Of a stretch of DNA of 64,000 nucleotides, positions 507-14,153 are shown in pieces (within the stretch, counting starts at the first letter, position 1; each line of letters opens with the position of its first letter). The translations under genes and the position numbers were made by a program. The stretch covers positions 31,690-95,689 of the forward strand of contig CALWHB010000002.1 in NCBI GenBank assembly GCA_944380275.1. The letters are read 5' to 3'. Source of the DNA: an uncultured Christensenellaceae bacterium. GTDB lineage: Bacteria > Bacillota > Clostridia > Christensenellales > UBA3700. A model generated the notes under the pieces. That model saw only the letters and a program-made list of their open reading frames with translations. It had not been told where the DNA came from and searched no databases.

Positions 507-1868
507 ATGCTTAAACTGACCGATTTTAAAAGTGTGCATTTCATAGGAGTATGCGGTGTGAGTATGAAAACGCTTGCATTGCTTTGCGCGCGTGAAGGAC
601 TCAAAGTCAGCGGTTCTGACAGGGCTGAATCCGACGTAATCGAAACGCTGTGTAAAAACGGCGTTTACGCATACGCAGGCAGCAACGCAAGCGTGGCTGA
701 AAAAGCAGAACTCGTAGTATATACCGCATGTATTCCGGATGATGACCCGGAACTCGTCAGAGCGAGAGCGTGTCGCAGAACGGTTATGGAAAGAAAAGCG
801 TTTCTCGTACTTGTTCAGAACATGTGCGATAAGACCGTCGCAGTTGCAGGTACTCACGGGAAGACGACCGCTACAGCAATGCTTTCTGCGATAATGCAAG
901 CTCAGGGCGTAAACTTCATAGGGCATATCGGCGGGGATTATCCCGGCGGGGAGATAAGTCTTGTGGACAGCGGCAGAGAAGTTTTTCTGACAGAGGCTTG
1001 CGAGTATAAGAGAAGTTTTCTTTCGCTTTCACCCGACGTTGCAATTGTACTCAACGTTCAGTTTGACCATCCCGATTGTTACAAGGATATAAACAAGCTT
1101 AAAGACGCTTTCGGCAGGTTTACGCAAAACGTAAAAAAAGGTGGATTGCTTGTAGTCGATTACAATCTGAAAGACGACTTCTGTCCTGAGGGAGTCAGAA
1201 AGGTTACCTTTGGGTTCAACCCAGCGTGCGATTATCGCGCTGACGACATCAAATACGACGGTGGCAGATACACTTTTTCTCTTTACAGATTCGGAGAATA
1301 TGTTGCAAGATACTTTTTGCACGTTTACGGAAAACACAATATACTCAATGCCTTAGCTGCCATAGCAGCGGCAGAAGGTATAGGGCTGGACGCCGTTTAT
1401 GCGGGAGAATCACTGAAAAATTTTGCAGGCATAAGCCGACGTTTTGAGTGTAAAGGGATGCTCAAAGGCGGCGCGAGAGTGATTGTGGATTATGCGCATC
1501 ATCCTGACGAGATAGCAGCGGCGATAGACACCGCGAGGGTGATGACCAGAGGTGAGATAAGCGTGTTTTTTGAGCCGCATACGTTCAGTCGTACTAAGTC
1601 GCTTATAGACAGGTTCGCAGACTGTTTTTACTGGGCGGACGAGGTGATTATCCTGCCCACGTACGCGGCAAGAGAAAAAAATATTGAAGGAGGAACGGCT
1701 TACGATTTGTATCAGAGGCTGAAAAAGAAAAAGACGGCGTGCCTTTATATGGACGGGTACGATGCCGCTGCGGATTATATAAAAACAAAACTTGACAAAA
1801 GCGGGATAATTCTTCTTCTCGGAGCAGGAACGGTAGACAGAATATCAGATATGCTGTTCAAACGATAA
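507..1868 (+). CDS. murC: UDP-N-acetylmuramate--L-alanine ligase (MurC)
   Basis: Cytoplasmic Mur ligase that adds L-alanine to UDP-MurNAc with ATP, the first step of the peptidoglycan stem peptide. The 453-residue length is normal for MurC. The N-terminal nucleotide-binding segment reads HFIGVCGVSM, departing from the usual GIGGIGM. The ATP-binding loop VAGTHGKTT lies near residue 113, and the C-terminal domain carries VDYAHHPDEIAAA, the MurC form of the HHP signature. No convincing Shine-Dalgarno lies at the right distance; an exact TATAAT ends six bases before the ATG, so the mRNA may be leaderless. An out-of-frame ATG at 499 was rejected because it does not open this protein. A strong terminator follows at 1931. 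Confidence in the family is high; only the altered glycine motif is unusual. Confidence 0.93.
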   Translation: MLKLTDFKSVHFIGVCGVSMKTLALLCAREGLKVSGSDRAESDVIETLCKNGVYAYAGSNASVAEKAELVVYTACIPDDDPELVRARACRRTVMERKAFLVLVQNMCDKTVAVAGTHGKTTATAMLSAIMQAQGVNFIGHIGGDYPGGEISLVDSGREVFLTEACEYKRSFLSLSPDVAIVLNVQFDHPDCYKDINKLKDAFGRFTQNVKKGGLLVVDYNLKDDFCPEGVRKVTFGFNPACDYRADDIKYDGGRYTFSLYRFGEYVARYFLHVYGKHNILNALAAIAAAEGIGLDAVYAGESLKNFAGISRRFECKGMLKGGARVIVDYAHHPDEIAAAIDTARVMTRGEISVFFEPHTFSRTKSLIDRFADCFYWADEVIILPTYAAREKNIEGGTAYDLYQRLKKKKTACLYMDGYDAAADYIKTKLDKSGIILLLGAGTVDRISDMLFKR

Positions 1869-1930
1869 TCTACACGGGCTGGAAAAAATTGATATATAAT
1901 CTGTTTGTGAAAACAATTTGCGAGAAATAA

Positions 1931-1956
1931 AAAAACCTCTGTGAAAAGAGGTTTTT
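1931..1956. terminator. Bidirectional intrinsic terminator between murC and the MDR gene
   Basis: A perfect 10-bp stem (AAAAACCTCT, 1931-1940, with AGAGGTTTTT, 1947-1956) with a 6-base loop. A-run and T-run on the two sides allow it to serve both convergent genes. Confidence 0.85.
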
Positions 1957-2027
1957 GATTTTCTGTACAGACATAATCGATTGGGTAAAAAGCCGGCAAT
2001 AATAAAACCTTTACCGTATCAATTATA

Positions 2028-2996
2028 TCAGCATTTCACGATGGTTTTCAATGCGTGAGGCGCGTCTTTTGCAAGACTTGCAAACACATCTGCCGCCTCT
2101 GAAATGTCGACGATTCTTTCGACGAGTTTATCCACCTTGACGACTTCTGTAGCAATCATGTTTATTCCCGTTTCGATTTCGCCGTCGCCGTTGTTAAGAC
2201 CGAAGATTTCAAGACCCTTTGTGAACACGAGAGCGAGGTCCGCAGACAGTTCTTCAGTCTTCTTGTCCAGTCCCGCGAGGCACAGCTTTCCTCCGTCCCT
2301 CATACAGGAGAGAAGTCCTTCTGCGTTAGGGTAAGAATCCAGGTCCAGCACCATATAGTCGCACATTTTTCCTGAAGTTATTTCTTTTACCTTCTGGAAG
2401 ACGTTTTCTTCGCCGGGATTGACCGTATAATAAATTCCCAGGTCCTGAGCGAGGTCGAGAAGTTCCTGGTTTTTGTCGATGATTACCGGGATAGCCTGAT
2501 AATAAATGGCAAGCTGACCTATGATGTAATTGAGCGAAGAGCAGCCGTTGAGCAAAATATACTGGGTTTTGCCCACGTCAAGCTTTTCGAGCGCGCTGAC
2601 AGCGAGCGCGACGTCTTCGATAAAAACGACAGATTCGTCGCTTATTCCTTCAGGGATAGCGTATACTTCAGAGTCGGGGCAGATTACGTAATCGGCAAGA
2701 TAGCCGTTTTTGTCCACGCCGCTCACCTGAAGAGAACCTGAGGATTTACGATAAGGGGAGAGCATTACTCTCTGCCCGGTTTTCAAGGTAAAATCAGAAC
2801 TTTCGCTGACTAAGCCCATGGCAATTCTCGAAGGCATAATCGGATAAAAATTTGCTTTGCCTTTATAAGCCGAGAGGTCTGAAGAGGTGATAGACGCGCG
2901 GGCAATGCGAACTTTTACGCAATCGTGCGGTACGTCTTTTTCTTCGTTGACGACCGTTTCGAGTTTGCCGGGTTCTGTTAAAACCAAAGATTTCAT
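2028..2996 (-). CDS. Medium-chain dehydrogenase/reductase (MDR) family protein lacking zinc ligands
   Basis: The order of elements (N-terminal GroES-like part, Rossmann part, C-terminal ALKTIV ending) is that of zinc-type alcohol dehydrogenases and L-threonine dehydrogenases. At 322 residues it is a little short. The catalytic Cys of the usual CG(S/T)D motif is replaced by ITSSD, the usual GHE is replaced by AMGLVSE, and the dinucleotide loop GxGxxG reads LNGCSSLNYIIG. So catalytic zinc is probably absent and cofactor binding may be weak or different. Substrate cannot be deduced. The ATG at 2996 has an upstream GAGGAAG ribosome-binding site. It is monocistronic, with its own extended -10 promoter and a small palindrome near the transcription start. 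It could be a scaffold or a sensor rather than a classical dehydrogenase. Confidence 0.75.
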   Translation of the reverse strand: MKSLVLTEPGKLETVVNEEKDVPHDCVKVRIARASITSSDLSAYKGKANFYPIMPSRIAMGLVSESSDFTLKTGQRVMLSPYRKSSGSLQVSGVDKNGYLADYVICPDSEVYAIPEGISDESVVFIEDVALAVSALEKLDVGKTQYILLNGCSSLNYIIGQLAIYYQAIPVIIDKNQELLDLAQDLGIYYTVNPGEENVFQKVKEITSGKMCDYMVLDLDSYPNAEGLLSCMRDGGKLCLAGLDKKTEELSADLALVFTKGLEIFGLNNGDGEIETGINMIATEVVKVDKLVERIVDISEAADVFASLAKDAPHALKTIVKC

Positions 2997-3010
2997 AAAA
3001 CTTCCTCACA

Positions 3011-3020
3011 CACTTAAGTG
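3011..3020. promoter_or_regulatory. Palindrome CACTTAAGTG at the MDR gene transcription start
   Basis: A perfect 10-bp palindrome lies between the predicted -10 box and the ribosome-binding site of the MDR gene, over the likely +1. This placement suits a repressor operator, but no matching regulator is known from the window. Confidence 0.25.
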
Positions 3021-3026
3021 GTTTTT

Positions 3027-3055
3027 ATCATAGCATAAAAAAACTCAAATTGCAA
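3027..3055 (-). promoter_or_regulatory. Promoter of the MDR gene
   Basis: Minus strand TTGCAA (3055-3050), 17-base spacer, TATGAT (3032-3027) with TGC just before it (extended -10). Confidence 0.55.
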
Positions 3056-3132
3056 GGCAAAAGACGGTTATAAAGCCGGACAGCGTAAAATGAAGTAAAT
3101 TTTTCAATACGCAAAAAAACCGCTAATAACGC

Positions 3133-3161
3133 TTGACTTGCAAAAAATAAATATGTATAAT
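3133..3161 (+). promoter_or_regulatory. Sigma-A promoter of rpmE
   Basis: TTGACT (3133-3138), exactly 17 bases, then TATAAT (3156-3161). Transcription should start near 3168, leaving a 30-base leader before rpmE. Confidence 0.7.
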
Positions 3162-3197
3162 CGTATGTGCGTAAAAGAATACAGTGAGGTGAAGAAC

Positions 3198-3401
3198 ATG
3201 AAAGAGAGCATTCAACCCAAATATCATGACGTGGTTATCCAGTGTACCTGCGGCGAGAAGTTCGTTTGCGGTACCACTAAGGACGTCGACGTCATTAAGG
3301 TAGACGTTTGCAACAAGTGCCATCCTTTCTATACCGGCAAACAGAAACTCGTTGATACCGGCGGTAGAGTAGATAAGTTCAAGAAACGTTACAGTCTGTA
3401 A
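3198..3401 (+). CDS. rpmE: 50S ribosomal protein L31, zinc-binding type
   Basis: A 67-residue protein starting [11 protein letters not shown], the typical L31 opening. Cys16, Cys18, Cys38 and Cys41 match the zinc-coordinating positions of the C+ form of bacterial L31. The protein sits on the large subunit, bridging to the small subunit. The open frame extends upstream to 3138, but the ATG at 3198 is chosen because GAGGTGAAG precedes it at the proper distance and because it matches the family start; the upstream codons overlap the promoter. The gene is followed at once by a terminator and then by the DUF1385-prmC-prfA cluster, a common clostridial arrangement. Confidence 0.95.
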
Positions 3402-3413
3402 TCGGATAATAAT

Positions 3414-3446
3414 GGTGCGGGGACTTATCCCGCACCGTATTTTTTT
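3414..3446 (+). terminator. Intrinsic terminator after rpmE
   Basis: An 8-bp GC-rich stem GGTGCGGG (3414-3421) with CCCGCACC (3429-3436), followed by a run of T. It probably reduces, rather than abolishes, read-through into the DUF1385 gene, for which I see no separate promoter. Confidence 0.75.
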
Positions 3447-3460
3447 ATGGAGGCTATGCG

Positions 3461-4798
3461 ATGAGAAAAAAGAGCGTAGGAATAGGCGGACAGGCGGTTA
3501 TCGAAGGAGTCATGATGCGCGGCAAGCGCAGTATGGCGACTGCGGTACGCGACGAAAACGGCAATATCGTTGTAGAAAGTCAGTATCTGAAACCTGTCGA
3601 AGAAAAGAGTTTTCTGTTCCGCGCGCCCTTTTTGAGAGGCATATTCAGCTTTTTCGGCACTATGGTTTCGGGTGTCCGCACGCTTATGCGTTCGGGAGAA
3701 GTCTTTGACGGAGAGCAGGAGCCTTCCAAGGCGGAAAAATGGTTTGCTAAGACCTTTAAAGTCGACGTATTCAGCGTAGTCATGGCGATATCGGTCGTTA
3801 TCGGCGTAGCGTTGTCCGTCGGCTTGTTTTTCTTTTTGCCTCAACTTATAACAACGGGCATAATCGCGCTTTTCAAGATAGACGCTCAGGCGAACGTAGG
3901 CGTGCAGATTGCGATGAATCTGCTTGAAGGATTTGCCCGTATGCTGATATTTATAGGATATATCGCGCTCACGTCCGCTATGAAAGACGTAAGGCGCGTG
4001 TATATGTATCACGGTGCGGAACACAAAACGATAAGCTGTTACGAGCACGACCTTGAACTGACCGTGGAAAACGCTCAGAAGATGACGACGGTACACGACA
4101 GATGCGGTACGACGTTTATGTTCATCACGATGGTAGTAAGCGTGCTTATATTCTCGCTCACAGGCTGGAGCGGACAGCTTTGGGTAAGATTTCTGATAAG
4201 ACTTGCATTGATACCCGTAGTTTCCGGCGTAAGTTACGAGGTGCTTAAGTTTCTCGCAAAATTCGACAATCCTTTCGTAAGAGCGCTCAAAGCTCCGGGA
4301 CTTCTTTTGCAGAAACTGACGACGAGAGAGCCTGACGATTCTATGGTAGAAGTCGCGATAGTCGCGTTTAAAACAGTTCTCGAAATGGACGAAAATCCGG
4401 ATTTGCCTGAGCTTAAATTCGATACTAAACTATTAAAGCGCAAGGTGGAAGAACAGTTACTTTCAACAGGGATAACCAAAGAGAGAGCAAAGCAACTGAT
4501 TTGCACCGGTATGGGCGTACAGGCAGAAGAGTACGAGCAGATAAGCCATATAAAACACTCCCGTATGCAGCTTATGCTCAGTGCGGCAAAAGGCGAAATC
4601 ACTGACGCGGAGCTTTGTGAAAAAGCGGCGGAGCTTAACGCGAAAGTTGAAGAGGAGAGAAAGGCAAACGAGCAGATTATAAAAGAAAGAGAAGACTCCG
4701 CAAAGGCAGACAATCACGCTGACGGACAGACAAAAGAAGAGGCTGAAGAGCAAAACGGAAAGTCGGATAATAAAAAAAACGGCGGAGATGACAAGTGA
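3461..4798 (+). CDS. DUF1385 family membrane protein (YqhQ-like) with charged C-terminal tail
   Basis: The opening KSVGIGGQAVIEGVMMRG is the hallmark of DUF1385 proteins (B. subtilis YqhQ), whose function is not established. Hydrophobic segments at roughly residues 105-137, 150-170, 212-232 and 235-252 indicate an integral membrane protein. The conserved YMYHGAEHKTISCYE stretch lies between them. After about residue 310 the protein continues as a highly charged Glu/Lys-rich tail likely to form helices or coiled coil, making it longer (445 residues) than the usual roughly 300. GGAGG is well placed before the ATG at 3461. The stop overlaps the GTG start of prmC by four bases, so translation of the two is probably coupled. 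Conserved linkage with rpmE and release-factor genes hints at a translation-related or envelope role, but that is inference. Confidence 0.85.
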   Translation: MRKKSVGIGGQAVIEGVMMRGKRSMATAVRDENGNIVVESQYLKPVEEKSFLFRAPFLRGIFSFFGTMVSGVRTLMRSGEVFDGEQEPSKAEKWFAKTFKVDVFSVVMAISVVIGVALSVGLFFFLPQLITTGIIALFKIDAQANVGVQIAMNLLEGFARMLIFIGYIALTSAMKDVRRVYMYHGAEHKTISCYEHDLELTVENAQKMTTVHDRCGTTFMFITMVVSVLIFSLTGWSGQLWVRFLIRLALIPVVSGVSYEVLKFLAKFDNPFVRALKAPGLLLQKLTTREPDDSMVEVAIVAFKTVLEMDENPDLPELKFDTKLLKRKVEEQLLSTGITKERAKQLICTGMGVQAEEYEQISHIKHSRMQLMLSAAKGEITDAELCEKAAELNAKVEEERKANEQIIKEREDSAKADNHADGQTKEEAEEQNGKSDNKKNGGDDK

Positions 4799-10300: not shown

Positions 10301-11500
10301 TTACTTGAGCGCGCCGGCAAGCTGTCTGCCGTATTCTTTTGCGGATTCTATGTCAGCCGCCGTGGGTACGAAACAGACTTTGAGCCCTTCGCCGACCACA
10401 GCCATTTTAAGTCCTGAAACTCTCGCTATAACATTGGGGACAGCCTCGCCGCTCCAGCCGTAAGAACCGAAGACAGCGACCGGCTTTTTGCGGCTGTTTA
10501 TCGCGTCCACGCCGGCGAGCAAATCCCATACGGGCGGAACTGCGTCAGAATTGAGGGTGGGAGAGCCTATCGCGCACGCGTCGCAAGAATTGATTTTTGC
10601 GCGCATTTCAGACATATCGTTCTCGATGAGGTTGTAAGTTTCGCAAGCCGCGTCGGGGATTACTTCCTTTACGCCTTCGGCGATAGCCTCAGCGAGTTTT
10701 GCCGTGCAGCCGTATGCAGAGCAGTAGAACACTGGGATTGTCTTTACCGCGTTCTTGACAGGCTTGCTCCAGTTTTTGTAGCAGTCGAGTACGTACGGCA
10801 GCAGTCCGTTCTTTGTCAGTACGGGACCGTGGCTGGGGCATACGGTTTCAAACGGATATTTTGCAATCTTTGCGGTGCCGGCGATTACGAAGGGCTTGAA
10901 AGGACCGAAAATGGCGTCGTAATAACCCTTGAAAGCCTCTTTGTATCCGTCGACGTTTTCCACATCCTTGTCAAAGACCTTCTCGCTGCTGTAATGAGAA
11001 CCGAATACGTCGCAGCTGAAAAGCACCTTTTCTTCAGCGCAGTACGTGAACATACTGTCAGGCCAGTGCAGCAGCGGTGCGACGGTAAACGTAAGCGTTA
11101 CGCCGCCAAGGTCGAGAACTTCGCCGTCCTTTACGGGGCGGGATTTAAAGGGTTCGTTTACGATGTTTTTCAGGTAGTTGAGCGCGACCGCCGTTGCGAG
11201 AACGGTAGCGTCTGGACACAGCCTGAGCAGGTCTGCGAGTGCGCCTGAGTGGTCGGGCTCTGTATGATTCAGCACGATGTATTTTATTTTTGCAGGGTCG
11301 GCAACTTCGCGTATGTTCGCCTCGTATTCGCCCTTGAAATCAGCGTGCGATGCCTCAATCAGAGCAACGTCGTCGCCTTTTACGATATAAGAGTTATAGC
11401 TGGTACCGTATTTTGTTTCCATCACTATATCGAAAACTCTGAGGTCGGGATTCTGCACTCCGACGCTGTAAATTTTGTCAGTAATTCTGTTTGCTGCCAT
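10301..11500 (-). CDS. Flavodiiron protein (oxygen/nitric oxide reductase)
   Basis: Cytoplasmic A-type flavodiiron protein of 399 residues: a metallo-beta-lactamase-like diiron domain followed by a flavodoxin domain. Iron ligands are visible as the H-x-E-x-D-H set (H79, E81, D83, H84), H145 (LLHWPDS), D164 (SCDVFG) and a later His in CPSHGPV. The FMN-binding flavodoxin part starts near residue 250 with FYCSAYGCTAKLAEA. Family members reduce O2 to water or NO to N2O in anaerobes. The open frame runs further upstream, but ATG 11500 is selected because GGAGGAG precedes it and the family begins there. It lies 40 bases downstream of the small glycyl-radical-domain gene in the same direction, so the two are likely one transcript protecting oxygen-sensitive enzymes. 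Confidence 0.92.
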   Translation of the reverse strand: MAANRITDKIYSVGVQNPDLRVFDIVMETKYGTSYNSYIVKGDDVALIEASHADFKGEYEANIREVADPAKIKYIVLNHTEPDHSGALADLLRLCPDATVLATAVALNYLKNIVNEPFKSRPVKDGEVLDLGGVTLTFTVAPLLHWPDSMFTYCAEEKVLFSCDVFGSHYSSEKVFDKDVENVDGYKEAFKGYYDAIFGPFKPFVIAGTAKIAKYPFETVCPSHGPVLTKNGLLPYVLDCYKNWSKPVKNAVKTIPVFYCSAYGCTAKLAEAIAEGVKEVIPDAACETYNLIENDMSEMRAKINSCDACAIGSPTLNSDAVPPVWDLLAGVDAINSRKKPVAVFGSYGWSGEAVPNVIARVSGLKMAVVGEGLKVCFVPTAADIESAKEYGRQLAGALK

Positions 11501-11540
11501 ATTGAAATCTCCTCCGTAAATTGCAGAATATTGTAGATTG

Positions 11541-11807
11541 TTAAATTCCGTGTTTAACTCTGTCCCTTTCTTCGGCGCGTTTAGCATTGTTGAAACGGTC
11601 GAGGGTACCAACAAGATAACCCGTTATGCGGCGTATCCTTTCAAAAGGTACGTTTTCAAAAGTATATTTGAGGTCGACGTAGTCGCCGTCTACAGTAACG
11701 TCCATCTGAGAAATGTTTTTATCGGGGTATTTCTTTTTACCGTAATCGATATAAGCGTCGATTTCTTTCTGTTCAAGCTGACCGCCGTTTACGTTTACTT
11801 TTATCAT
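11541..11807 (-). CDS. Stand-alone NrdD-type glycyl-radical domain protein
   Basis: An 88-residue protein without cysteine. Its second half, from RIRRITGYLVG to AEERDRVKHG, matches the extreme C-terminus of anaerobic class III ribonucleotide reductase (E. coli NrdD has RRVCGYLG, FNAGKQEE and VKRRVKH), the segment that carries the radical glycine; here that would be Gly63. The rest of NrdD, including its cysteine zinc site and active-site barrel, is absent. The first half (about 50 residues) is unassigned. The start at 11807 has GGAGG seven bases away; an upstream TTG was rejected. It heads a likely operon with the flavodiiron protein. By analogy with GrcA/YfiD, the spare glycyl-radical subunit of pyruvate formate-lyase, it may rescue oxygen-cleaved NrdD. 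Similar short proteins in databases are often named anaerobic RNR; whether it carries a radical is unknown. Confidence 0.8.
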   Translation of the reverse strand: MIKVNVNGGQLEQKEIDAYIDYGKKKYPDKNISQMDVTVDGDYVDLKYTFENVPFERIRRITGYLVGTLDRFNNAKRAEERDRVKHGI

Positions 11808-11861
11808 AATTTTATCCTCCGGCAAATATTTTTAAAATTCGCTTTACTTTTTATCGCATAT

Positions 11862-11867
11862 AATATA
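11862..11867 (-). promoter_or_regulatory. Extended -10 promoter of the glycyl-radical/flavodiiron operon
   Basis: On the minus strand TATATT (11867-11862) is preceded by TGT, forming an extended -10; no good -35 box is present. The predicted start is about 11855, which puts the 11889-11906 palindrome near -42, the position used by class II Crp/Fnr activators. Confidence 0.45.
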
Positions 11868-11888
11868 ACATATTTTCAGAAGAAATAT

Positions 11889-11906
11889 ATGTTGCAAATG
11901 CAACAT
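11889..11906. promoter_or_regulatory. Palindromic operator, probable Crp/Fnr-family binding site
   Basis: ATGTTGCA-AA-TGCAACAT is an 8+2+8 inverted repeat in the intergenic region between the Crp/Fnr regulator gene and the divergent glycyl-radical/flavodiiron operon. It would sit near -42 for the minus-strand operon (activation) and only 13 bases before the regulator ATG (autorepression). Size and symmetry fit Crp/Fnr sites; the specific sequence is not one I can assign to a characterised regulator. Confidence 0.6.
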
Positions 11907-11919
11907 TTTGAGGAAAATT

Positions 11920-12567
11920 ATGGATATTTTTAAAATAAATCTTTTTGACGGGATAAGCGGCGAGGACGTAGAGAGGATGATAGTATGTTTCGGCGCGGTT
12001 TTCAGAAGTTTCAAGACAGGTGCGACTATATACGACTATCCGGGCAGCGGCGACGACGTTGGAGTAATGCTTGAAGGTAAGGCGTCGATGATACGTACGG
12101 ACGAAGACGGAGAGGTCGCGGTTATGGAACTTTATTCAGAGGGCGACATATTCGGAGAGGTGCTTGCTTTTGCCAACGAAACGGGCGACAGCGTCAAAGT
12201 TATTGCAGAGAGCGATTGCAACGTTATGTTCATCAAGTATTCGCAGATAACAAAACGCTGTGAAAGAGCATGCGAGCATCACAGCAGGCTTGTAGGGAAT
12301 ATGTTCGGGCTGATAGCGAGAAAGACGCTTTTGCTGAGCAGAAGAATAGAGATATTGTCAAAAAAGACCACAAGAGAAAAGCTGATGTATTATTTTCAGA
12401 CGCTTTCAAAGGATTACGGCGCGGAGTTTGAACTGCCTATGTCGGTAACACGACTTGCTGAATACGTATGCGCTGACAGGAGCGCGATGACGAGAGAACT
12501 GTCGCGTATGCAGTCGGACGGACTCATTGAGATAAACAAGAGAAGAGTAAAGCTCAAAAAGGCATAA
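11920..12567 (+). CDS. Crp/Fnr family transcriptional regulator
   Basis: 215 residues with an N-terminal cyclic-nucleotide-binding-like beta roll (about 15-110, with GEVAVMELYSEGDIFGE), a dimerisation helix, and a C-terminal winged helix-turn-helix (about 150-215) containing SVTRLAEYVCADRSAMTRELSRMQ. The Arg residues needed for cAMP binding are not evident, and the cysteine pattern of FNR iron-sulfur clusters is absent, so the effector is unknown; haem or a metabolite is possible. The ATG at 11920 has a close TGAGGA site; a TTG 12 bases upstream was rejected. Divergent from the flavodiiron operon with a shared palindrome, it is the obvious candidate regulator of that operon. Confidence 0.9.
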   Translation: MDIFKINLFDGISGEDVERMIVCFGAVFRSFKTGATIYDYPGSGDDVGVMLEGKASMIRTDEDGEVAVMELYSEGDIFGEVLAFANETGDSVKVIAESDCNVMFIKYSQITKRCERACEHHSRLVGNMFGLIARKTLLLSRRIEILSKKTTREKLMYYFQTLSKDYGAEFELPMSVTRLAEYVCADRSAMTRELSRMQSDGLIEINKRRVKLKKA

Positions 12568-12827: not shown

Positions 12828-14153
12828 TCAGACTGCTGAAAAGCTGTCTTTTTCAGCCGTAACGCTCACGCTCATTGCCTCGCCGTTTCTGGTGAAGTTT
12901 ATAGTGATTGTATCTCCCTCTTTTGCCTTGAGCAGGTATTCGCGCGCTCTGAAAGAAGTATCCACCTTGACGCCTTCTTCGCCGTTTATTGAAACTGATA
13001 CCAGAACGTCGCCTTGTTGCAACAAGCCTTCGACAGCCGCTCCCGTGCTTATTTCGCCTACCGCATACGTGTATACGGTACGTATAATGCCGTCGGAATC
13101 AATGTAAGTCGTCATATCTGAGAGTTCCATAGTGATGCCAAGGCTGAAACGCTGACCGTTGTTTTCGATTATATTGTCAGCAACCGCTACCGCAAGACTT
13201 GCAGGGATTGCGTAACAGATGTTGTCGTCAGTCGTATCTGCTGATTTTGCGTCGGAAATGCCCATAAGTTCGCCGTATTCGTTGAACATACCGCCGCCGG
13301 AGTTACCGCTGTTGAGAGCGGCGTCCGTGCGGTAAACGCGTACGTTGGACGAGGAGTCGGTAGTGATGTATTCAGACTCGACAGAAACTATGCCAGACGT
13401 TACCGAGAAGGTGTAAAGCGTGGGGCAGCCTACCGCAAAAGTCGCCTGACCTGCGACGGGGTCTGAAGTATTTACTTTTACGGTTGCGACCGTGTCTTCG
13501 AGGAAGAAATCCGAAGAGGCTTTTATTACCGCAATATCGTTGCTTTCCGACGCGCCCACGACGGTTGCGCTAATCATATCGTCTTCCATAACCCTGTTGT
13601 AAAGATAAATTTTTATATTGCTGCAATATTCGCTCTTGTAGGTGTCGTATATCACGTGATAATTTGTTATTATATATGCGGTATTTCCGCTGAGCTTATA
13701 AATTACGCCTGAACCCGACCACGCATGCTGACTCTGACCGAAGGGGGTAGTGTAAGGACTTGTGCATATAATACCGACCGCGCTTTTCAGGGCTTGCTGT
13801 ACGGTTGAGGTTATGCTTGGGGTAACGTCAAGACCGAGCGACGCGTAAAAGTCTGCCTCTGTAGCTCCCGGATTGCTTTCGAGATATTTAGCAATAAGTT
13901 CGTCGAGAGAGAAAGCGTCTTTTCCGTCAGTACCGTTAGTTCCGTCGACGCCGTCTTTGCCGTTGGTGCCGTCTGAACCTTTAAGGCTTTCGAGCCACTC
14001 GCTTTCCGTACCTTCAAAGCCGTTTCTGACAGCGATTTCATAAGCCGACTCGCCCTTTGTTTCAGAACCTATGCAAGAGCATAGCAAAACCGCGGTAAAC
14101 ACGGTTATAACAATTGCCACAATCGCGGTGAGGATGATTTTTTTTGATTTCAT
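12828..14153 (-). CDS. HtrA/DegP-like trypsin-fold serine protease, lipoprotein with collagen-like repeat
   Basis: A 441-residue surface protein. Residues 1-27 form a lipoprotein signal ending in the lipobox LCSC, with Cys27 as the lipidated residue. Residues 36-57 resemble the NGFEGTESEWLESLKG linker often found before collagen-like stretches in gut Firmicutes. Seven Gly-X-Y triplets follow at 59-79. The protease domain shows a complete triad: His166 (TNYHV), Asp206 (SNDIAV) and Ser285 (GNSGGG). A PDZ-like domain covers the last roughly 100 residues. It is therefore a membrane-tethered, extracytoplasmic quality-control or processing protease. GGAGGCG lies before the ATG. The collagen-like spacer between lipid anchor and protease is unusual for HtrA. 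Confidence 0.88.
   Translation of the reverse strand: MKSKKIILTAIVAIVITVFTAVLLCSCIGSETKGESAYEIAVRNGFEGTESEWLESLKGSDGTNGKDGVDGTNGTDGKDAFSLDELIAKYLESNPGATEADFYASLGLDVTPSITSTVQQALKSAVGIICTSPYTTPFGQSQHAWSGSGVIYKLSGNTAYIITNYHVIYDTYKSEYCSNIKIYLYNRVMEDDMISATVVGASESNDIAVIKASSDFFLEDTVATVKVNTSDPVAGQATFAVGCPTLYTFSVTSGIVSVESEYITTDSSSNVRVYRTDAALNSGNSGGGMFNEYGELMGISDAKSADTTDDNICYAIPASLAVAVADNIIENNGQRFSLGITMELSDMTTYIDSDGIIRTVYTYAVGEISTGAAVEGLLQQGDVLVSVSINGEEGVKVDTSFRAREYLLKAKEGDTITINFTRNGEAMSVSVTAEKDSFSAV

Follow-up and report, generated by a model that had tools for sequence, protein, structure and literature searches.

We identified, in a stretch of 64,000 nucleotides from an uncultured Christensenellaceae bacterium (contig CALWHB010000002.1, positions 31,690 to 95,689; hereafter the window), a gene for an 88-residue stand-alone protein (SA) that carries the glycyl-radical tail of NrdD, the class III anaerobic ribonucleotide reductase (RNR). 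SA is probably an exchangeable spare part, and in related bacteria and phages it probably replaces a tip that NrdD no longer carries. At the level of sequence, this view is carried by the homology of the tail, its conservation, its gene neighbourhoods, the geometry of a putative operator, and a separate tail gene in every searched genome with a tail-less NrdD. Loci, genomes and contigs are given L, G and C numbers below. The features of the locus are as follows.

10301..11500, minus strand: flavodiiron protein, 399 amino acids, with ODP metallo-beta-lactamase and flavodoxin domains (Pfam, NCBIfam)
11541..11807, minus strand: SA, stand-alone NrdD glycyl-radical protein, 88 amino acids (Pfam NRDD tail, conservation, selection)
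11544..11645, minus strand: SA glycyl-radical tail, residues 55-88 (Pfam, 8p23 match, alignment)
11619..11621, minus strand: codon of Gly63, the predicted radical glycine (alignment to Gly711 of Prevotella copri NrdD)
11646..11807, minus strand: SA N-domain, residues 1-54 (alignment, AlphaFold2)
11816..11820, minus strand: Shine-Dalgarno sequence GGAGG of SA
11862..11870, minus strand: predicted extended -10 element, TG-N-TATATT (consensus match)
11891..11904, no strand: putative operator GTTGCAAATGCAAC, GTTGCA-N2-TGCAAC (palindrome conserved in Crp-linked relatives)
11920..12567, plus strand: Crp/Fnr-type regulator, 215 amino acids, divergent from SA (Pfam)

SA joins an NrdD radical tail to a domain of its own

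A first-pass annotation had described an 88-residue frame with a glycyl-radical motif, ordered with a flavodiiron gene and a divergent Crp/Fnr gene, and open reading frame (ORF) and Pfam analyses bore this out. SA starts with ATG, its start codon and ribosome site are conserved among relatives, and 40 nt separate its end from the ATG of the flavodiiron gene downstream. The match to the NrdD glycyl-radical region, named beforehand as one of the points on which the proposal could fail, is significant. Pfam NRDD (562 positions, bit-score cut-off 26.2) aligned its positions 533-562 with SA 55-86 at 30.5 bits (E 2.1e-7), the NCBIfam NrdD model PRK14704 matched at E 1e-12, and the solved P. copri NrdD 8p23 matched at E 3.3e-5, with SA 55-86 corresponding to residues 707-738 of chain A. 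The NrdD homology begins at PFERIRRITGYLVG, and residues 1-54 gave no Pfam or NCBIfam match. Thus the tail stood as first described, and the preceding residues, earlier left as about 50 unassigned ones, are a conserved domain of their own without a clear known fold. This N-domain occupies the place of the NrdD zinc ribbon, which SA lacks, since the window protein contains no cysteine. AlphaFold2 predicted the N-domain as beta-alpha-beta-beta, with block means of the per-residue confidence (pLDDT) of 82-89 over residues 1-50; the tail was loosely predicted, with a helix at 74-81 that falls at the place of helix 723-730 in P. copri NrdD. In the P. copri study, that helix comes after Gly711, and the radical domain of the dATP-bound enzyme was too dynamic to be seen (PMC11226230).

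Conservation was assessed in an alignment of the window SA with 74 loci out of 97 sequence groups (84-106 amino acids, ATG start, related-locus set only). Residues E15, Y19, F55, R57, R59, R60, T62, G63, Y64, L65, K76, E79 and R83 were invariant in all 75, including the radical glycine and the tyrosine that follows it (Gly63-Tyr64), although the invariance from F55 to G63 is partly built in by the search, in which FxRIRRITG served as one of two patterns. Homologues in four genomes of the same family were 64-76% identical over the full length. Against five relatives (a sixth, of unequal length, was left out), the proportion of nonsynonymous differences (pN) was 0.04-0.18 and that of synonymous differences (pS) 0.66-0.88, with pN low in both halves of the protein. 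These results demonstrate that SA is a real, conserved protein under purifying selection.

The 1.78-Mb assembly of the window genome (89.8% complete) encodes two full NrdDs in addition to SA; a search of it for a class I/II RNR (PF02867) came up empty. SA 52-88 is 95% identical to the NrdD of contig C46, and the 30-residue radical loop is identical, while the second NrdD, on contig C16, had no match to SA at E <= 0.001. The C16 NrdD (L002) ends in a glutaredoxin domain (Pfam E 9.6e-6), which suggests a built-in reductant. None of the GrcA or Gly_radical models of Pfam and NCBIfam matched SA at E <= 1, and by sequence SA lies outside the GrcA family. It is therefore very improbable that SA serves another glycyl-radical enzyme, such as pyruvate formate-lyase (PFL) or the glutaredoxin-fused NrdD. 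GrcA does serve PFL (PMC8683613), and the second NrdD is present in the window genome; against this stand the near identity with the C46 tail, the missing match to the C16 enzyme and to the GrcA-type models, and the nrdD, nrdG and nrdR genes that adjoin SA in relatives.

Some NrdDs of related bacteria lack the tail, and a separate gene encodes it

SA follows directly on an nrdD that ends after the zinc ribbon at two bacterial loci (L071, L090) and on three viral contigs (L155, L194, L196), with the GYL tail motif absent in every frame around the nrdD stop. We drew 148 genomes from the family of Ruminococcus bicirculans 80/3, and in at least 51 of them NrdD was matched just to positions 530-547 of 562 (counted from NrdD matches down to about 542 bits; the partial matches of G267, 42-533, and G330, 1-507, are uncounted). 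When all 51 loci were read, 39 had a separate gene for a 48-62-residue tail just downstream, at gaps of -4 to 360 nt; of the 38 loci at which this gene was called, 34 have a same-strand NrdG, and the tail ORF of the 39th (L324) was found by hand. The remaining 12 loci, the complete R. bicirculans chromosome included, had no tail in the stretch read, and their proteins end in remnants such as HERIKRI. At the R. bicirculans nrdD stop another frame reads RGYLVQ, yet no frame holds a tail motif, and the same applies to the 11 similar loci. One candidate, G053 (L029, L053, L279), was at first taken for a frameshifted nrdD; this was rejected, and it is now read as a tail-less nrdD with a short tail ORF.

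When the 75 SA sequences were used as queries, each of the 54 genomes with a tail-less NrdD (the 51 plus G200, G201 and G053) proved to encode a separate tail. Full SA was present at another locus in all 12 tail-less genomes without an adjacent tail and in none of the 39 with a short tail gene. Across the family, full SA occurred in 27 of 148 genomes (weak or partial matches in G279, G389 and G307 uncounted), so that the 12/12 compare with 15/136 of the other genomes (Fisher p 1.2e-10) and the 0/39 with 27/109 (p 1.5e-4), both tests ignoring kinship. PF02867 was found in none of these 12 genomes with a tail-less NrdD and SA elsewhere, and 10 of them had no other NrdD among the matches listed (G205 and G316 have one); SA should therefore supply the radical in trans. 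Similarly, G200 has a tail-less NrdD and SA, and no other RNR was found.

The 54 of 55 tail-less proteins that could be aligned (L295 was missed by the motif) all keep the catalytic-site residues Cys180 and Cys452, numbered as in the C46 NrdD of the window genome, and three zinc-ribbon cysteines. We take Cys452 to be the thiyl site from its motif. The 28 comparison rows labelled as intact include three tail-less proteins (L241-L243), and all other 25 have the glycine. As judged from these sequences, a tail working in trans is the simplest reading of the tail-less NrdDs, which are the strongest evidence in this study. A permanent split is what the short tails next to nrdD resemble, and SA looks like the movable, separately controlled version. 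At locus L360 (G308; 1314-3797, minus strand), NrdD carries two complete tandem glycyl-radical tails at its C-terminus, a possible intermediate.

SA is spread over bacteria, phages and mobile elements

Among 200 genomes of the order, 19 contained SA (own genome included; matches covering residue <=7 to >=86), and 17 of these also showed an NrdD tail in the same search, the exceptions being G026 and G027. A phylum sample of 398 genomes yielded 14 with SA starting at residue <=8 (E limit 1e-15) and 9 further genomes with the tail alone, in a short open frame of 57-105 amino acids. The named genome collection held at least 364 relatives among at least 597 pattern matches, isolates of Ruminococcus flavefaciens and R. 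bicirculans included, and its best 80 relatives were taken as loci. An NrdD body was present in all 30 genomes searched that had SA or a short tail gene; that of G026 is a contig-end fragment.

In the viral collection, 102 relatives were found among 547 pattern matches. The best 80 of the 102 served as viral loci, and 76 of them contain a stand-alone SA ORF, a few clipped by contig ends (not called in L139, L162, L193 and L198). Of the 41 IMG/VR records searched, the longer ones of the 80, two contain an NrdD body, both tail-less and with SA; none was found in the other 39, six of which span 201-258 kb, and such records are often fragments. A scan of 61 neighbour proteins on viral contigs returned portal, head, tail and integrase families, plus transposases and reverse transcriptases; because of the latter two, some of these contigs may be other mobile elements. 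Radical tails also travel on mobile elements, as three loci with extra short tail genes or an SA copy show, L361 (G344), L364 (G271) and L377 (G322): nearby, Pfam identified an HNH endonuclease, a phage-type integrase and a conjugative coupling protein. In the cultured Eggerthella phage EL753P1 (OP172808, L214), nrdD contains an intein-like LAGLIDADG insert and is tail-less; a tail motif lies about 500 nt downstream, its pieces in two frames.

Altogether, SA fell into 45 bacterial and 52 viral sequence groups. It is hardly credible that so many groups, with a conserved start codon and ribosome site and purifying selection on both halves, represent a decaying fragment of a duplicated nrdD, even though SA carries the last 34 residues of NrdD only and the two-tailed NrdD of G308 might be an intermediate.

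At part of its loci, SA is linked to oxygen-defence genes or to nrdD and nrdG

The neighbours of SA were counted at 100 bacterial loci (the window and L034-L133 minus L053; 45 groups at 75% identity), some of which are one genome reached twice, e.g. L035 and L130. A divergent Crp/Fnr gene occupied position -1 in 38 loci (11 groups), rubrerythrin +1 to +4 in 31 loci (6 groups), flavodiiron +1 or +2 in 11 loci (5 groups), NrdG +1 to +3 in 6 loci (6 groups), NrdD -1 in 5 loci (5 groups) and rubredoxin +1 in 4 loci (4 groups); NrdR was found in 4 loci (4 groups). For rubrerythrin, rubredoxin, NrdG (radical SAM), NrdR and Crp/Fnr, Pfam confirmed a single member per family, and it also confirmed the window flavodiiron protein. 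By profile, genes of these seven families numbered 99 among the 383 that lie up to two places from SA and 3 among the 699 at places three to eight, a contrast inflated by building the family profiles from genes within four places of SA. SA thus occurs in two settings, Crp | SA - (rubredoxin) - flavodiiron/rubrerythrin and nrdD - SA - nrdG (- nrdR), and many loci fit neither (e.g. L039, L047, L091). The linkage to oxygen-defence and Crp/Fnr genes that had been predicted for relatives is therefore present, in part of the loci only.

Two further neighbours were seen beside the Crp/Fnr gene. In the window, 12828-14153 (minus strand) encodes what Pfam identified as a trypsin-like serine protease ending in a PDZ-like part; GTDGKDG-type repeats lie close to the beginning of this protein. 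A UppP/BacA gene adjoins the Crp/Fnr gene in the majority of 17 loci from 5 groups (L060, L069, L114 and other Ruminococcus; Pfam on one).

The operator noticed near SA held up in relatives. Of the 38 Crp-linked loci, 37 have a TTGC-N2-6-GCAA palindrome at most 200 nt ahead of SA, in each case in the strict form GTTGC-N4-GCAAC, and 0.8% of letter-shuffled upstream regions contain the palindrome; the exact window operator occurs once in the 1.78-Mb assembly. The distance from the operator centre to the first base of the predicted -10 hexamer was 29.5 nt in 31 of the 37, 30.5 nt in five (window included) and 28.5 nt in one. Taking the hexamer start as -12, the centre would lie at -41.5 from the predicted start, which we take to be the class II position of Crp/FNR activators. 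A wider operator regulon was also considered and dropped: sites with at most one mismatch numbered 7, and the reversed control gave 15, so no wider regulon is claimed. The regulator has cNMP-binding and HTH_Crp_2 domains (Pfam), and Cys23, 114, 118 and 184 are present in 38 of 38 linked relatives and Cys100 in 36. Their spacing differs from that in E. coli FNR. The conserved cysteines suggest that the regulator may sense redox state or carry an iron-sulphur sensor.

These settings bear on two other explanations. SA could be a constitutive alternative radical subunit, with NrdD running on its own tail or on SA during normal anaerobic growth and the oxygen-gene neighbourhood secondary. SA is indeed the sole separate partner of the tail-less NrdD in 12 of 12 family genomes, and nrdD-SA-nrdG operons with an intact NrdD exist (L096, L101, L123). 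However, the setting that recurs most often puts SA in a separate operon, where a Crp/Fnr gene diverges from it, an activator-type site precedes it and rubrerythrin, rubredoxin or flavodiiron genes accompany it. A subunit used at all times needs none of this, and we regard the constitutive explanation as unlikely. More doubtful still is a decoy or regulator that competes for NrdG or fills the NrdD barrel and so stops deoxynucleotide synthesis under oxygen; the SA tail, the same as the NrdG substrate, and the stress-type regulation would fit, but the genomes in which a glycyl tail was found just on SA and no other RNR was found (G200 among them) would be left unexplained.

A proposed mechanism and its standing

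We consider it likely that SA is a trans-acting radical domain for class III RNR and, in the window organism, a spare part for oxygen-cleaved NrdD. Glycyl-radical enzymes are known to be cleaved by oxygen, and in NrdD the cut falls at the radical glycine. In the proposed mechanism, the last 34 residues of SA would substitute for the NrdD tail: NrdG would install the radical on Gly63, the 54-residue N-domain would dock SA onto an NrdD body missing its own tail, and the SA loop would enter the NrdD barrel beside the thiyl cysteine, so that the reductase could run. In the window organism, SA would replace the loop that oxygen-cut NrdD has lost, and the flavodiiron protein, on the same predicted transcript as SA, would remove oxygen or nitric oxide; the cysteine-rich Crp/Fnr activator, bound about 42 bp before the start, would switch the operon on. 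A spare part is preferred here because the window loop has an activator-type site and an oxygen/nitric oxide reductase although NrdD keeps its tail. What we infer from these patterns is that SA carries the radical, that its N-domain does the docking, that repair takes place and that the regulator senses redox state.

With somewhat less confidence, we also think it probable that class III RNR occurs in nature as an enzyme of two polypeptides, the smaller of which is exchangeable and bears the oxygen-fragile radical; that the permanent split, a tail-less NrdD together with SA or with a 48-62-residue tail protein, is widespread in the R. bicirculans family; and that phages and other mobile elements bring along a radical subunit with which the reductase of the host is run or rescued.

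Several observations weigh against the proposed mechanism or weaken the evidence for it. The NrdDs of the window organism keep their tails; what the split cases support is therefore a function in trans among relatives and not repair here. G168, of the same genus and among the 200 order genomes, is without SA. The link to oxygen genes is partial (Crp/Fnr in 38 and flavodiiron in 11 of 100 loci; 11 and 5 of 45 groups), and operator-like sites also occur in 8 of 62 non-Crp bacterial and 1 of 75 viral upstream regions. In favour of the mechanism, the SA tail is nearer to the NrdD tail of its own genome than to others (0.922 vs 0.880; 24 genomes, 0/10,000 permutations), but this comparison is confounded by shared ancestry, and in 7 of the 24 pairs the tails clearly differ, at 2-8 places (G007, G037, G164, G015, G114, G192, G035). 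AlphaFold confidence for the SA tail is low (block means 59-73, pTM 0.48). PF02867 was matched in 7 of 9 minimal-tail-gene genomes tested. Most genomes are metagenome-assembled, so the absence of another NrdD or RNR may fail in single cases. Finally, the SA N-part is predicted to be folded, while the N-terminal half of YfiD is disordered (PMC8683613).

Comparison with known systems

The first-pass annotation had compared SA with GrcA/YfiD of E. coli. According to PMC8683613, YfiD replaces the oxygen-cut loop of PFL and is activated only when cleaved PFL is present; the validated spare parts named there are only YfiD and Y06I, both for PFL, and such parts for other glycyl-radical enzymes are called a 'tempting speculation'. 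SA resembles YfiD and Y06I of phage T4 in being a small protein with an N-terminal extension and a radical loop, in occurring in bacteria and phages, and in its expected activation by the activase of the parent enzyme; like GrcA, it has the loop of a same-genome parent enzyme, here the C46 NrdD. It differs in that its tail derives from NrdD and not PFL, in its place with oxygen-defence genes or nrdD/nrdG, and in accompanying, in relatives, an NrdD whose tail is permanently lost. The idea of a fragment working in trans is considerably strengthened over the first-pass annotation, because the tail-less NrdDs need SA or a minimal tail protein as the source of their tail.

With the NrdD C-terminal domain (PF13597; P. 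copri 676-739), SA shares the radical loop, the following tyrosine, the helix and the RVKH end; unlike that domain, it is a separate gene without the zinc ribbon, the cysteines of which remain on the tail-less NrdD body. Phage nrdD genes can be split by introns, inteins or endonucleases (PMC3653736), which likewise leaves NrdD in several pieces in phages. By contrast, SA and the short tails are conserved genes with their own starts, SA adds an extra domain, and the separate tail also lies at distant loci and in bacterial chromosomes. In the open literature covered (titles and abstract openings, with subscription papers mostly outside), no SA or tail-split bacterial NrdD was described.

Natural tail-less NrdDs offer a clean system for two-chain radical transfer, and with R. 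bicirculans 80/3 and the R. flavefaciens isolates the idea is directly testable. Phages, too, seem to profit from a radical subunit, to judge by the copies on viral contigs. If the proposal is true, the way in which strict anaerobes resume DNA synthesis after oxygen would be explained by a radical tip that can be replaced, since RNR is essential and searches of the window genome found RNR of class III only.

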